Source: Deltaproteobacteria bacterium RBG_13_61_14 (GTDB taxonomy: Bacteria > RBG-13-61-14). From it: 8,588 nucleotides of DNA. The position numbers were made by a program, and so were the translations under genes. Shown in pieces: positions 1 to 8,290 of this stretch. The DNA lies in NCBI GenBank assembly GCA_001797815.1, contig MGQK01000074.1, positions 7,143 through 15,730 on the forward strand, given 5' to 3'. The notes below the pieces were generated by a model. It did no database searches. It saw only the letters and a program-made list of their open reading frames with translations, and was not told the origin of the DNA. Numbering within the stretch: position 1 is the stretch's first letter; each line of letters opens with the position of its first letter.

Positions 1-580
1 CGGTCAGCCCCTGGTCCCGGCAGAGCCGGCCGGCCAGGCGGTAGATCGCGGCCTGGTGTTTCAGGTCGAGGAAGGTGGTGGGCTCGTCCAGGAACAGGAG
101 TCGGGGTTCCTGGGCCAAGGCCCGGGCCAGGACCACCCGCTGTTTCTCCCCGCCCGAGAGTTCGTAGAGCCGGCGCTCGGCAAAGCCGGCGGCGTCGGTC
201 AGCTCCAGCGCGTTCCGGGCTGCGGCCAAGTCCTGGGCGCCCTCAAATTCGAAACGGCCCAGGTAAGGGGCGCGGCCCATGAGCACGATCTCGAGGGCAG
301 AGAAAGGAAAAGCGATTGAGGATTCCTGGGGCGCGACCGCCAGGGTGCGGGCCAGCTCGCGCCGCTCGTAGCCGGCCAGGGGCTTGCCGAAGAGGCGCAC
401 CCAGCCGGCCTGGGGAAAAAGTGCCCGGCTCAGGATCCGCACCAGGGTGGTTTTGCCCGAGCCGTTGGGCCCGATGATCCCGAAAAGTTCGCCCGCGTTC
501 ACGACCAGACTTACGCCCTGCAGCACCGGCGCACCCGGACGAAAGGCAAAGGTTAAGCCTTCGGCTTCAATCGCCGGCAT
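1..580 (-). CDS. btuD: Cobalamin ABC transporter ATP-binding protein, BtuD/FecE-like (partial, C-terminus off the window)
   Basis: This is the ATPase subunit that would power B12 import through the adjacent BtuC-like permease from the cytoplasmic face. The visible 193 residues begin MPAIEAEGLTFAF. They contain Walker A GPNGSGKTT (about 37-45), a Q-loop in APQES (Q85), the ABC signature LSGGEKQR (141-148) and Walker B LLFLDEPT (161-168). The D-loop LDLKHQ follows. The H-loop and the end of the protein lie beyond position 1. FecE/BtuD ATPases are usually about 250-270 residues, so roughly 60-80 residues are missing. The ATG overlaps the permease stop by one base (TGATG), which supports this start and translational coupling. 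It is the third gene of the riboswitch-controlled unit. The family is certain; the cobalamin assignment rests on the upstream riboswitch. Confidence 0.93.
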   Translation of the reverse strand, partial: MPAIEAEGLTFAFRPGAPVLQGVSLVVNAGELFGIIGPNGSGKTTLVRILSRALFPQAGWVRLFGKPLAGYERRELARTLAVAPQESSIAFPFSALEIVLMGRAPYLGRFEFEGAQDLAAARNALELTDAAGFAERRLYELSGGEKQRVVLARALAQEPRLLFLDEPTTFLDLKHQAAIYRLAGRLCRDQGLT

Positions 581-1623
581 CAGGTTTCTCCAAAGGCGAC
601 CGCGCGCCGCCGCCGCAAGAGCCAAATGAAGAAAGGCCCGCCGAACAGCGCGGTGACCACGCCCACCGGCATCTCGGCCGGGGCGACTAACGTGCGGGCC
701 AGGGTATCGCAGAGGATCAGGAAGAGAGCGCCGGATAGAAACGCGGCCGGGAGGAGCAGGCGATGGTCCGGGCCCAGGCTCAGGCGGACGAGGTGGGGGA
801 CGACCAGGCCCACGAACCCGACGATGCCGCTGACCGAGACCACTGCCCCCACCGCGAGGGAGGCGGCCACGAACGCCCAGAGCTTGGTCCGCTCCACCTC
901 CACGCCCAGGTGTCCGGCGGGTTCCTCCCCCAGGCTGAGCAGGTTGAAGTCCCGCGCCCGGCCGAAGAGCACGGCCCCGGCCAGGGCCACATACACCCCG
1001 ATGCCCGCGACCAGGCTCCAGCGCTCGCTGCCCACGCTGCCCATCATCCAGAAGACCACTCCCTGCACCCGCTCGGGACTGGAGAGGCTGAGCACGAACA
1101 TGATCACCGCGGAAAAGAAGGCGTTGGCCACCACCCCGGCCAGGAGCAAGGAATGGATCGGGAGCCGGCCCTCGGTCCGGGCCAGGGAAAAGACCAGGAG
1201 CACCGTGCCGAGCGCGCCGGCAAAGGCAAAGAGAGGAACGCCCCAGATGCCGAAGCCGGCCGCGGAGACGTCGAGGAGCATGGCGATGATCGCGCCCAGG
1301 GCTCCGCCGCCCGAAACCCCGAGCAGGAAGGGGTCGGCCAAAGGGTTTCGGAGCAGGGCCTGGAACCCGGCGCCGGCGACCGAGAGCGCCGCGCCCACGA
1401 TGCCGGCCAAAAAGACCCGGGGCAGCCGCACCTGCCAGAAGATAACCCCGGCGGGGCTGAGCGTTTCGCCGGAGGTCAAGCGCTGGAAATCCTGGAGCAG
1501 GGAAGCGGGCGAGAGCATGGGCGCGGTCGGGCCGATCAGGGCGGCGATCAGAGCGCCGAGCGCGAGCGCGGCCGAAAGCCCGCCTACTACCAGGGACCAG
1601 CGGCCCGGGCCGAGCCGGCTCAT
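580..1623 (-). CDS. btuC: Cobalamin ABC transporter permease, BtuC-like (FecCD family)
   Basis: This is the inner-membrane permease of the B12 importer; a homodimer would form the translocation channel and bind the ATPase. The 347-residue length is normal for FecCD permeases. Family hallmarks are visible in order: an N-terminal hydrophobic helix (about 12-30), RLPR (66-69), GFQALLRNPLADPFLLGVS (86-104), many hydrophobic segments, GIVGFVGLVVPHLVR (266-280) facing the ATPase coupling region, and the closing PVGVVTALFGGPFF block (319-332) followed by an Arg-rich cytoplasmic end. Its ATG overlaps the stop of the binding-protein gene by 4 nt (ATGA at 1620-1623), and its TGA shares one base with the next ATG. 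By sequence alone it could equally be a haem or siderophore permease. The cobalamin riboswitch upstream of the unit makes B12 or another corrinoid the best substrate. Confidence 0.92.
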   Translation of the reverse strand: MSRLGPGRWSLVVGGLSAALALGALIAALIGPTAPMLSPASLLQDFQRLTSGETLSPAGVIFWQVRLPRVFLAGIVGAALSVAGAGFQALLRNPLADPFLLGVSGGGALGAIIAMLLDVSAAGFGIWGVPLFAFAGALGTVLLVFSLARTEGRLPIHSLLLAGVVANAFFSAVIMFVLSLSSPERVQGVVFWMMGSVGSERWSLVAGIGVYVALAGAVLFGRARDFNLLSLGEEPAGHLGVEVERTKLWAFVAASLAVGAVVSVSGIVGFVGLVVPHLVRLSLGPDHRLLLPAAFLSGALFLILCDTLARTLVAPAEMPVGVVTALFGGPFFIWLLRRRRAVAFGET

Positions 1624-2528
1624 GGCCGCGCCTCCGCGGGAAAAGCTTCCGGATGCAGGATCTTGGCCATCAGGATCAGGCCGTCAAAGAGACGGGGGCC
1701 GGGCCGGGCCACCAGGTCGGCGTTGATAACCGCGATCCGAAGGTCGCGCACCGCCGGCAGGGTTCCCCAGCGCGACCAGCTCTCGCGCGCCCGCTCTGCG
1801 GCTTCGGCCTCCGAGCCCATGGCGCTCTCCACGATCACCTCCGGCGCCCGCGCGATCACTTCTTCCAGGCTGAAGCGAGGGTAGGGGATGGCCGAGTCGC
1901 CGGCGATGTTGATCCCGCCGGCGTTGCGGATCAAGTCATCGGCAAAGGTGCCTTGGCCGGCCAGGACCAGGGGATCGCGGCCATAGGCGAACAGCACCTT
2001 GACCGGCTGCAATCCCTGGGTCCGGCTCCGGACCAGTTCGAGCTTCTGGCGGCAAGCCAGGATCAGTTCTTGCGCCGCCGGCTGCCGGCCGGTCTCCTGG
2101 CCGATCGCCGCGAACTCCTCCAGCACCTGCTCCAGGGTAGCCGGTTGAAAGGTCTCTACCCGCACCCCCAGCTCGGAGACGCGGCCGAGGTCGCGGGCCG
2201 GGTTGCCGTCCCGCGTGGCCAGCACCAGGTCCGGCTTCTGCGCCAGGAGCGCCTCCAGGTTCAGTCCCCTGAATCCTCCCACCTTGGGCAAAGCTTTTGC
2301 CGCCGGCGGGTAATCGCAAAACTCGGTCACCCCCACGATCTTTCCTTCCAGCCCCAGGGCGAACAAGATCTCGGTGATGCTCGGAGCCAGCGACACGATG
2401 CGGTCCGGGGCTTCGACTCTGCCCGGCGCCTGGCCCTGGGAAGACCGCCTCCCCAGGGCCAGGCCGGCGCAGAGAAGAAGAAGAAAGAGAAGAGAAAGCG
2501 CGAGGGAGATATTCCGTTTTGTCTTCAT
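1620..2528 (-). CDS. btuF: Periplasmic cobalamin-binding protein, BtuF-like
   Basis: This is the solute-binding protein that would deliver cobalamin to the BtuC-like permease. The 302 residues start with a basic n-region (MKTKRN) and a hydrophobic core (about 7-20), with possible signal-peptidase cleavage after ALG (about 24-26). A Cys sits in LLLLCAG, but the small residue expected just before a lipobox Cys is absent, so lipidation is doubtful. The mature part has the class III (PF01497-type) pattern: RIVSLAPSITEILFALGL (43-60), VGVTEFCDYP (65-74), KVGGF..LNLEALLAQKPDLVLA (82-104), then the second lobe with GGINIAGD (204-211) and a C-terminal PGPRLFDGL (277-285). The start at 2528 was chosen for the signal peptide. 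A GTG at 2586-2588 in the same frame, with a GAGG 9 nt upstream, would add 20 residues encoded across the terminator hairpin and is a real alternative. Confidence 0.9.
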   Translation of the reverse strand: MKTKRNISLALSLLFLLLLCAGLALGRRSSQGQAPGRVEAPDRIVSLAPSITEILFALGLEGKIVGVTEFCDYPPAAKALPKVGGFRGLNLEALLAQKPDLVLATRDGNPARDLGRVSELGVRVETFQPATLEQVLEEFAAIGQETGRQPAAQELILACRQKLELVRSRTQGLQPVKVLFAYGRDPLVLAGQGTFADDLIRNAGGINIAGDSAIPYPRFSLEEVIARAPEVIVESAMGSEAEAAERARESWSRWGTLPAVRDLRIAVINADLVARPGPRLFDGLILMAKILHPEAFPAEARP

Positions 2529-2533
2529 GGCCG

Positions 2534-2566
2534 AAAAAAATCCCCGACCTCGGGGGAGGTCGGGGA
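2534..2566 (-). terminator. Rho-independent terminator in the btu leader (riboswitch expression platform)
   Basis: Read on the minus strand, an 11-bp perfect stem (TCCCCGACCTC / GAGGTCGGGGA, arms 2556-2566 and 2541-2551) with a 4-nt C loop is followed directly by seven T (2534-2540). It stops 5 nt before the btuF ATG at 2528. A terminator between a cobalamin aptamer and its first gene is the usual platform for transcription attenuation by B12: ligand-bound RNA terminates, ligand-free RNA reads through. Its 3' arm holds the only purine-rich stretch (GGGGA) near the ATG, so it may also hide the ribosome binding site. Confidence 0.9.
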
Positions 2567-2619
2567 TCATGTCGAGCGACGACTTCACTTTCCCACACCT
2601 CGAGGAAGATTACGTGAAG

Positions 2620-2777
2620 CGCGTCCCGGCAGGTTTCCTGGCTGACGGCATAATCTCTCGGCCTTCCCATCCCGGGCGGGACAGTGGCATGTTCGAGAGA
2701 TCGTCACCGATCACAGTGGCGGGGCCGCGAGGGCTTTCCACCCTCTTCCCTTTTATCCCAAGGGGCACCCGGACGCG
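2620..2777 (-). ncRNA. Cobalamin (B12) riboswitch aptamer
   Basis: The minus strand carries the conserved core of the cobalamin riboswitch in the right order. These elements are GGTGCC near the 5' end, an AAAGGGAA..AGGGTG..AA..CCCT block, CCGCCACTGT (plus 2713-2722), a helix ATCTCTCG/CGAGAGAT (2694-2701 with 2653-2660), a second GCCACTG (2682-2688), GGGAAGGC (2661-2668), and the B12 box GCCAGGAAACCTGCC (2628-2642). A closing P1 stem is visible as CGCGTCC (2771-2777) pairing with GGACGCG (2620-2626). It lies between the promoter and the btuF terminator. It binds adenosyl- or other cobalamins and lowers expression of the transporter when B12 is plentiful. The class is recognised by eye from the consensus; a covariance-model search would fix the exact ends. 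Confidence 0.95.
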
Positions 2778-2792
2778 TTATGTTTTACACTA

Positions 2793-2821
2793 ACCCTAGC
2801 GCATCTGCCGAGCGTTGTCAA
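2793..2821 (-). promoter_or_regulatory. Sigma70-type promoter of the btu unit
   Basis: On the minus strand a perfect -35 TTGACA (2816-2821) and a -10 TAGGGT (2793-2798) are separated by exactly 17 nt. The expected start of transcription is near 2786, about 9 nt before the first base of riboswitch stem P1. That position supports both the promoter and the aptamer calls. The -10 is weak in its middle bases. Confidence 0.75.
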
Positions 2822-2898
2822 GAAAAAAATGATGGGCTTTCCGAGAGGCTCCTGGAGAGGGGTCAGCGGGCTGGAAGGTTCAGGCAAATCGAAGCGAT

Positions 2899-2964
2899 CC
2901 TTGCGCCGGGCACTGTCCACCATGCTATGCAATTATGTAAAGTTTAAAGTAACGATCTGACCCC
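2899..2964 (-). repeat. Left copy of an inverted repeat flanking the RRM gene
   Basis: Read on the minus strand from 2964, this begins GGGGTCAGATCGTTACTTTA. It aligns with the plus-strand copy starting at 3635: 29 of the first 40 positions are identical by hand count. After a 10-nt length difference both copies share GTGGACAGT (here 2912-2920) and a GC-rich end. The two copies face each other across the RRM gene. A further GGGGTCAG at 2859-2866 forms an 8-bp inverted repeat with the CTGACCCC at 2957-2964. No transposase is present. The ends resemble sequences I associate with IS200/REP-associated transposase elements, which is an inference from memory. Confidence 0.5.
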
Positions 2965-3044
2965 GACCATTGGCACTATAAGAACAGGTGTGGGGCATTA
3001 TCCCAGAGGCTGCTTTCTCGGAAGGGCATCATGAAACAGTCTGG

Positions 3045-3084
3045 AAAGAAAGCGACCCTTCCCGACAGTGACCGTCGGGAAGGG
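3045..3084 (-). terminator. Rho-independent terminator of the RRM gene
   Basis: An 11-bp perfect stem (CCCTTCCCGAC / GTCGGGAAGGG, arms 3056-3066 and 3074-3084) with a 7-nt loop starts 25 nt after the stop codon of the RRM gene. On the minus strand it is followed by a T-rich tract (TCGCTTTCTTTCC) rather than a pure T run. Since it closes the only gene nearby on this strand, it very probably ends that transcript and shields the btu promoter from read-through. Confidence 0.75.
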
Positions 3085-3109
3085 CCGCGGGAGGTTTACT
3101 CGACTAGTC

Positions 3110-6952: not shown

Positions 6953-8290
6953 ATGAGAAGGAGCTATTACCTCGGATTCCTGGCGCTGGTTTTGGTGTCG
7001 CTCGTTGCCGGCGGGCAAAGTTGTGCCCGGGCGAAAAAGCAGCCGGGCGCTTCCGCCGGCGCTCCCACCCGCGCGCAATTGCAGCAGCGCCTGCAAGCGC
7101 TGCAATGGGACTGGGAGATCCTGCAGAAAGACCAGCCGCCGCAGAATGAGACCACGGGCTTCCGGCTCAGCCTGAAGCGGGCCGAGCAAAACCTGGCCGA
7201 AGGCCGGCTGAAACCGGCCGAGGCCGACCTGGCCGAAGCCGAAGCCTGGATGAAAGATGCCCGCGTCCGCTACTACCGCCAGCGCCAGGCGGCGGTGCCG
7301 GCCAAGGACAGCCCGGAAGACGGCGAAGCCCTGATGGACCAGGCCCGGGATTTCTGGAAACGGTCCCAGACCGCGGCCGGCCAGGGCCAGGAACTCTTAA
7401 GCCAGAAATACCAGGTCGCGGCCCTGGCGCAAGGCGAGCTCGCGCTGCTCGCCTCCGCGGGCAAGCGCGACCGCGTTCTCGATTCCGCCAACCGCTGCCT
7501 GGAATTGGCCGACTGGTATCGCCAGGCCGGGATGGAAAACGATGCCCAGCGCATGACCAATCAGGGACGAGCGGCGATTCAAGCAGAGGTTAAGACCCTG
7601 CTCGGCGAGATTGAGGCGGCGCTGGCCGGCCAGGAAAAGGGTTTCCCGCCGGAGCAGTTGAACAAGAGTGAAGAGGCCTTTGGTAACGCCCGGGCGGAAC
7701 TGGACCGCCGCAACCAGCGTTTGCTCTACCTCAAGCAGCGCGGCTCCATCTTGTATCCGGGCCAAATCCAGGCCGAAGACCAGGCCCCTCGCATCCAGGC
7801 CTGGGCCGCGCCCTTTCTTCAGCATTTCCAACGCGTGGCCCAGCAAAACCAGATCAAGACCCCGATCGCGGACAAGGAGCGCCTGGCCCAGCGCGAGCGC
7901 CAGCGCCTGCAGGCGGTGCGCGAGCTGAGCCAGGCCTGCGCCAACGCGATCCCGCTTTCCACCCCGGGGCTGCAAATCATGGAGTTGATCGTGGAGCCTC
8001 GGGGCCCCGAGGTGGTAGTTCGCGGCCGGATCATCAATAACAGCGGGCAGACCCTGTATCGGTTGCGGATGGCGGTGTGCGGAGAGCTCGTCGCTTCCGA
8101 AGTGATTGACCTGAACCGGCCCACCCTGCTCAATGAAAATCAGGAGAGCTTTACCCTCCCGCTCGCCCACTACGAGCTGGGAGATTTCATGGCTACCCAG
8201 TTCAAGATCGGACCCCACCAACTGCTCCTCATCTACGACGACAGCCAGGACGTCGAGCGCCGCGAATACCTCGCCTTGCCCAATAACTAG
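6953..8290 (+). CDS. Predicted exported or lipoprotein-like protein, mostly alpha-helical, function unknown
   Basis: I do not recognise a characterised family. The 445 residues start with an export signal (MRRSYY, then a hydrophobic stretch 8-20). A Cys24 in AGGQSC could be lipidated, but the residue three before it is Gly rather than Leu or another aliphatic, so the lipobox is poor. Residues about 38-335 are rich in Ala, Glu, Gln, Leu and Arg, with heptad-like runs such as LAEAEAWMKDAR (93-104), and should form a chain of helices or coiled coils. The last about 110 residues change character: IMELIVEPRGPEVVVRGRI (342-360) and INNSGQTLYRLRM (361-373) look like beta strands of an FxLYD-like sandwich, a resemblance judged by eye. 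The start has AAGGGGC upstream. The 91-nt gap after the acyl-CoA dehydrogenase gene shows no terminator or clear promoter, so co-transcription is possible. An envelope-structural or binding role is a guess. Confidence 0.8.
   Translation: MRRSYYLGFLALVLVSLVAGGQSCARAKKQPGASAGAPTRAQLQQRLQALQWDWEILQKDQPPQNETTGFRLSLKRAEQNLAEGRLKPAEADLAEAEAWMKDARVRYYRQRQAAVPAKDSPEDGEALMDQARDFWKRSQTAAGQGQELLSQKYQVAALAQGELALLASAGKRDRVLDSANRCLELADWYRQAGMENDAQRMTNQGRAAIQAEVKTLLGEIEAALAGQEKGFPPEQLNKSEEAFGNARAELDRRNQRLLYLKQRGSILYPGQIQAEDQAPRIQAWAAPFLQHFQRVAQQNQIKTPIADKERLAQRERQRLQAVRELSQACANAIPLSTPGLQIMELIVEPRGPEVVVRGRIINNSGQTLYRLRMAVCGELVASEVIDLNRPTLLNENQESFTLPLAHYELGDFMATQFKIGPHQLLLIYDDSQDVERREYLALPNN

Follow-up and report, generated by a model that had tools for sequence, protein, structure and literature searches.

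A class I cobalamin riboswitch predicted to repress a btuFCD operon by premature transcription termination in Deltaproteobacteria bacterium RBG_13_61_14

The window analysed here, a stretch of 8,588 nucleotides, carries on its minus strand a leader followed by btuF, btuC and btuD (Table 1). The best solved relatives of the btuF product are vitamin B12-binding proteins (phmmer; 5ysc, E 1.8e-44), and downstream of btuD the contig encodes a TonB-dependent receptor that somewhat resembles B12 receptors. Given btuF, btuC, btuD and the downstream TonB receptor, these genes together look like an operon for B12 uptake. An earlier first-pass annotation of the sequence had described a complete B12-sensing leader ahead of btuF, and its coordinates and letters agree with our re-reading of the minus strand.

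Table 1 Features of the btuFCD leader and operon, in window coordinates
Feature	Position	Strand	Basis
Putative sigma-70 promoter: TTGACA 2821-2816, 17-nt spacer, TAGGGT 2798-2793	2793..2821	-	read directly
Cobalamin (class I) aptamer, including P1 and B12 box AGCCAGGAAACCTGCC	2611..2787	-	RF00174 match
L5 loop CCCCG, putative kissing partner of L13	2720..2724	-	RF00174 alignment position; L5-L13 covariation in 83 distinct leaders
P13 hairpin: outer stem 2619-2614/2588-2583, inner stem 2607-2604/2593-2590	2583..2619	-	folding; similar hairpin in most related leaders
L13 motif CGAGG, predicted to pair with L5, A2600 bulged	2598..2602	-	leader alignment and L5-L13 covariation
Predicted antiterminator 5' strand GAGGTGTGGGA, overlaps L13 and 3' side of P13	2591..2601	-	folding, duplex energies, shuffles
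Predicted antiterminator 3' strand, the 5' arm of the terminator	2556..2566	-	folding
Intrinsic terminator: 13-bp hairpin 2568-2539 and U tract TTTTTTT 2540-2534	2534..2568	-	terminator scan; folding
btuF, B12-binding periplasmic protein, ATG 2528	1620..2528	-	Peripla_BP_2 E 9e-33; phmmer to 5ysc E 1.8e-44
btuC, FecCD-type permease	580..1623	-	FecCD family match
btuD, ABC ATPase, extends beyond window edge	2..580	-	ABC_tran family match

Further downstream, past btuD and the TonB receptor, contig C74 of the same genome encodes two adjacent proteins (L149:5087-2987) that are 34% identical to each other and, as judged visually, carry propeller-like repeats; the first begins like a lipoprotein. 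Neither has a family match in Pfam or NCBIfam, and the first has none in the PDB. Their position beside a TonB receptor in a B12-riboswitch operon resembles the case of the surface B12-binding BtuG; they are candidate new B12-capture proteins. On the other side of the leader, an RRM (RNA-binding) protein is encoded at 3397-3110 on the minus strand, and just past it stands a strong 17-pair terminator-like hairpin (3088-3052, minus strand) that would insulate the riboswitch promoter. A 445-aa protein encoded on the plus strand (6953-8287) has no match in Pfam or NCBIfam.

The first-pass annotation had assigned the leader to the cobalamin riboswitches and proposed an Rfam covariance search as a check. 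This search matched RF00174 (Cobalamin) to the minus strand at 2787-2611 with 115.3 bits (gathering cut-off 31.5 bits) and E 4.6e-29 over the full model (1-189), and the match is the sole cobalamin riboswitch copy found by covariance search of the whole assembly. The B12 box AGCCAGGAAACCTGCC and the CCCG core of L5 (CCCCG 2724-2720, close to the consensus UCCCG) are both present, as is a P13 hairpin whose L13 is complementary to L5. Like RF00174 class I members, the leader has a full-length aptamer, a B12 box and a P13-L13 hairpin 3' of P1 and precedes B12 uptake genes; only normal sequence variation separates its aptamer from the family. Judged by this match, the aptamer is a class I cobalamin riboswitch and would be expected to bind a corrinoid.

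Directly 3' of the aptamer, the first-pass annotation had described a competing hairpin, CTTCAC/GTGAAG. The stem is present (2619-2614/2588-2583), with an inner UUCC/GGAA stem (2607-2604/2593-2590) in the same hairpin, and by its position and loop it is the P13-L13 element of the cobalamin riboswitch literature; what the annotation missed is the L5-L13 kissing loop. The L13 loop of the window, UCGAGGUGUG, lies inside UUCC/GGAA and is flanked by CUUCAC/GUGAAG, and Nitrospira btuF leaders carry UCGAGGCUG in an equivalent setting. CCCG 2723-2720 of L5 can pair with CG-A-GG 2602-2598 with one bulge. When more than 100 cobalamin leaders were aligned 3' of the aptamer, most had a hairpin at this place with CGNGG, the commonest L13 form, in its loop. 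In 84% of 83 distinct leaders the variable position of L5 pairs with its counterpart in L13, a covariation that none of 20000 permutations equalled. All nine leaders with L5 TGCCG have C or U opposite, although these nine are related Nitrospira-type sequences that may represent few events. A simple count of the L13 motif (92 seen versus 72 expected; 85 versus 37 as a hairpin, many rows being near relatives) carries little weight, since chance often produces the motif: by itself it arises in 30% of window shuffles, and it is frequent in GC-rich RNA. The L5-L13 kissing loop and its sensing role are established (PMC10653944, PMC9600662), and in the window it would couple P13 to the ligand. Two other assignments were dropped: a kissing loop between L4 (UGGAAAG) and UUCC, after L5 had been identified from the Rfam structure line, and GUGGG 2596-2592 as L13, replaced by CGAGG 2602-2598, a form that most leaders share.

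The promoter that the annotation reported as visible can be read directly as TTGACA, 17 nt and TAGGGT, but its -10 element is weak (3/6 consensus positions) and it is absent from the sites reported by the consensus scanner. A TTGACA-17-TA/TTAATT layout also occurs 5' of the aptamers in the same-phylum leaders L021 and L031, and TTGACA, 17 nt and a TA- or TT-rich -10 recur in 3/3 leaders of the comparison set, which covers three genomes of the phylum (the window's, G001 and G002). The terminator before btuF was found as annotated, a hairpin of 13 pairs (2568-2539) followed by seven U. It lies between aptamer and first gene, as in transcription-attenuating corrinoid riboswitches, and btuF ATG 2528 is 5 nt past the U tract; shuffling gives 1.2 expected terminator-like sites in 2300-3100, where five were seen. 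Another ATG, at 2570 and upstream of the terminator, is in frame with btuF.

Between aptamer and terminator, the first-pass annotation had proposed an antiterminator of 2592-2601 with 2556-2565. The pairing is exactly placed: GAGGTGTGGG (2601-2592) and CCCCGACCTC (2565-2556) form 5 bp, a 2x2 mismatch (G2596/G2561, U2595/C2562) and 3 bp. It is also one pair longer than described, GAGGUGUGGG (2601-2592) with CCCCGACCUC (2565-2556) being lengthened by A2591-U2566. The duplex has an energy of -15.0 kcal/mol; the runner-up among all leader segments that can pair with the terminator arm reaches -9.0 kcal/mol, so that the 2601-2591 strand is the arm's best partner by 6 kcal/mol. Against dinucleotide shuffles of the intervening aptamer-terminator RNA the pairing gives p = 0.027, and against shuffles of the terminator arm p = 0.059; significance by shuffling alone is modest. 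When 25 leaders were compared, the 3' half of the window's P13 ranked its own terminator arm 1/25, and complementarity of this kind over the 25 leaders was borderline (p 0.056). Many leaders, for example those of Nitrospira btuF, apparently use a different antiterminator strand.

When growing transcripts are folded for minimum energy, P13 comes first, then the antiterminator, then the terminator. P13 persists until about 2562, the antiterminator beats it by 5.6-7.8 kcal/mol at transcript ends 2556 to 2548, and the terminator is favoured from about 2544. By prediction the antiterminator is exclusive with both P13 and the terminator, as a repressing riboswitch needs. Kissing and tertiary contacts are not covered by nearest-neighbour energies. 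The bound state was represented by a bonus on P13, which is a free parameter and not a measured value: 6 to 8 kcal/mol abolishes the antiterminator, whose ensemble share at 2556-2549 falls from about 1.0 without the bonus to below 0.04 with 8 kcal/mol. The finished terminator is approximately 7 kcal/mol more stable than the antiterminator, so switching must be kinetic, and the stretch in which the decision would fall is only about 10 nt.

A similar arrangement is found in G001, a genome of the same phylum and order from another family, in which a cobalamin leader (L031/L148) directly precedes btuF-btuC-btuD and BtuF is 53% identical to that of the window. Its prefixes fold from P13 through an antiterminator, UCGGGAAA/UUUCCCGA, to a terminator, and the antiterminator again arises from the 3' side of P13 (shuffle p = 0.017; combined by hand with the window by Fisher's method, approximately 0.004). 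The two leaders are alike in promoter layout, aptamer, CGAGG P13 loop, antiterminator origin and a terminator that abuts btuF, but their stem sequences differ, and the start codon predicted in G001 shares bases with the U tract. In G002, the leader of a TonB receptor (L021) combines an aptamer and a terminator with a P13 that carries CGUGG; the candidate for its antiterminator is outside P13, on the downstream side, and does not reach significance (p 0.25).

From the aptamer, P13 and L13, the terminator, the complementarities and the predicted order of structures, we infer ligand binding, kissing, termination and its ligand dependence in the window RNA. The covariance search, the growing-transcript folding and the relative with the same architecture support the riboswitch class, the attenuation principle and the antiterminator pairing put forward by the first-pass annotation, and the class I cobalamin riboswitch very probably represses the btuFCD(-TonB receptor) operon by ending transcription early. 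At low corrinoid, L5 would leave P13 unheld, and 2601-2591 would pair with the 5' arm of the terminator once RNA polymerase has transcribed it, delaying the terminator so that btuF is transcribed. At high corrinoid, the bound aptamer would form the L5-L13 kissing loop and lock P13, leaving the 5' arm free to form the terminator and stop transcription before btuF. Because the antiterminator strand begins inside L13, L5 and the terminator arm would compete for the same bases, and because it overlaps both L13 and the 3' side of P13, the bound aptamer should keep it off the terminator.

Among the closest known systems is Priestia megaterium metE, for which a scheme with the 3' side of P13 as antiterminator has been demonstrated by mutagenesis; there, the antiterminator has to exceed unassisted P13 in stability (PMC10653944). 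Both riboswitches are repressing and transcriptional, the window's by prediction, with a kissing loop that stabilises P13, a P13 3' side that serves as antiterminator against the 5' side of the terminator, and an antiterminator more stable than P13 without kissing. The window differs in that its L13 kissing segment is bulged (CG-A-GG), its antiterminator takes in part of L13 and it would control btuFCD instead of metE; it is known from sequence and folding. As far as they are described in PMC10653944, the env8HyCbl and Escherichia coli btuB riboswitches share the L5-L13 kissing loop, with a bulge and a mismatch in the env8HyCbl pairing too, but act on translation through the ribosome-binding site, whereas the output in the window is a terminator.

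The terminator hairpin could nevertheless have a second role. Its 3' arm holds the nearest purine-rich stretches, GAGGU and GGGGA, the only such sequence before ATG 2528, and there is no Shine-Dalgarno between the U tract and that ATG; in L148 btuF is predicted to start at a TTG that overlaps the U tract, with GGGGGA suitably spaced in the 3' arm. Dual control, in which the hairpin terminates transcription and in full-length RNA also hides the btuF ribosome-binding region, is thus possible but rather unlikely, given that the spacing to ATG 2528 is poor (12-18 nt) and that termination alone explains repression. A ribosome-binding-site-sequestering riboswitch lacking a terminator does not describe a leader with a U-tailed one, though purines may partly overlap the terminator arm. 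That a start-abutting hairpin acts at two levels while L5 and the terminator arm contest L13 is a more doubtful proposal; if true, it would be a compact dual-level variant in two families of one little-studied phylum. Translation might instead start at GTG 2588, in frame with btuF, with L13 (GAGGUG) as a Shine-Dalgarno of good spacing and stronger pairing (-9.7 kcal/mol) than at ATG 2528; the kissing loop and P13 would hide the site and ribosomes would block the terminator. We find this improbable: the start would add 20 residues before the normal signal peptide from ATG 2528, GTG 2588 is not conserved (in L031/L148 no in-frame ATG, GTG or TTG lies upstream of the btuF start within the platform), the antiterminator would cover the site when the operon should be on, and L13 accounts for the GAGG.

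Complementarity could also have arisen by chance beside a constitutive terminator, as the GC-rich leader and shuffle p values of about 0.03-0.06 might suggest. This too has a low probability, since the 2601-2591 strand surpasses any other segment by 6 kcal/mol and the relative L031 retains the arrangement with other sequence. Activation by corrinoid, with P13 as antiterminator, is on record within the same aptamer class in A. halodurans cobT (PMC10653944), where the 3' side of P13 is shared with the 5' side of the terminator. In the window, P13 (2619-2583) and the terminator (2568-2539) have no overlap and fold together, an anatomy that excludes the activating design, and uptake genes are typically repressed; activation is accordingly the most improbable of these readings.

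Repression by termination would predict B12-repressed uptake in a poorly sampled lineage. The leader is well formed but ordinary and adds no new class or principle; the P13-3'-strand antiterminator scheme, dissected to date in P. megaterium metE, would have in it an independent example from nature, here with part of L13 included in the antiterminator. Among the aligned leaders, Nitrospira-type loci (L034, L035, L038, L039, L055 and L056) have two cobalamin riboswitches approximately 3.5 kb apart. The second has L5 TGCCG and L13 CGAG[CU], followed by GGGAGG resembling a sequestered Shine-Dalgarno, and from their sequences these loci look like terminator-type and translation-type switches flanking btuF.
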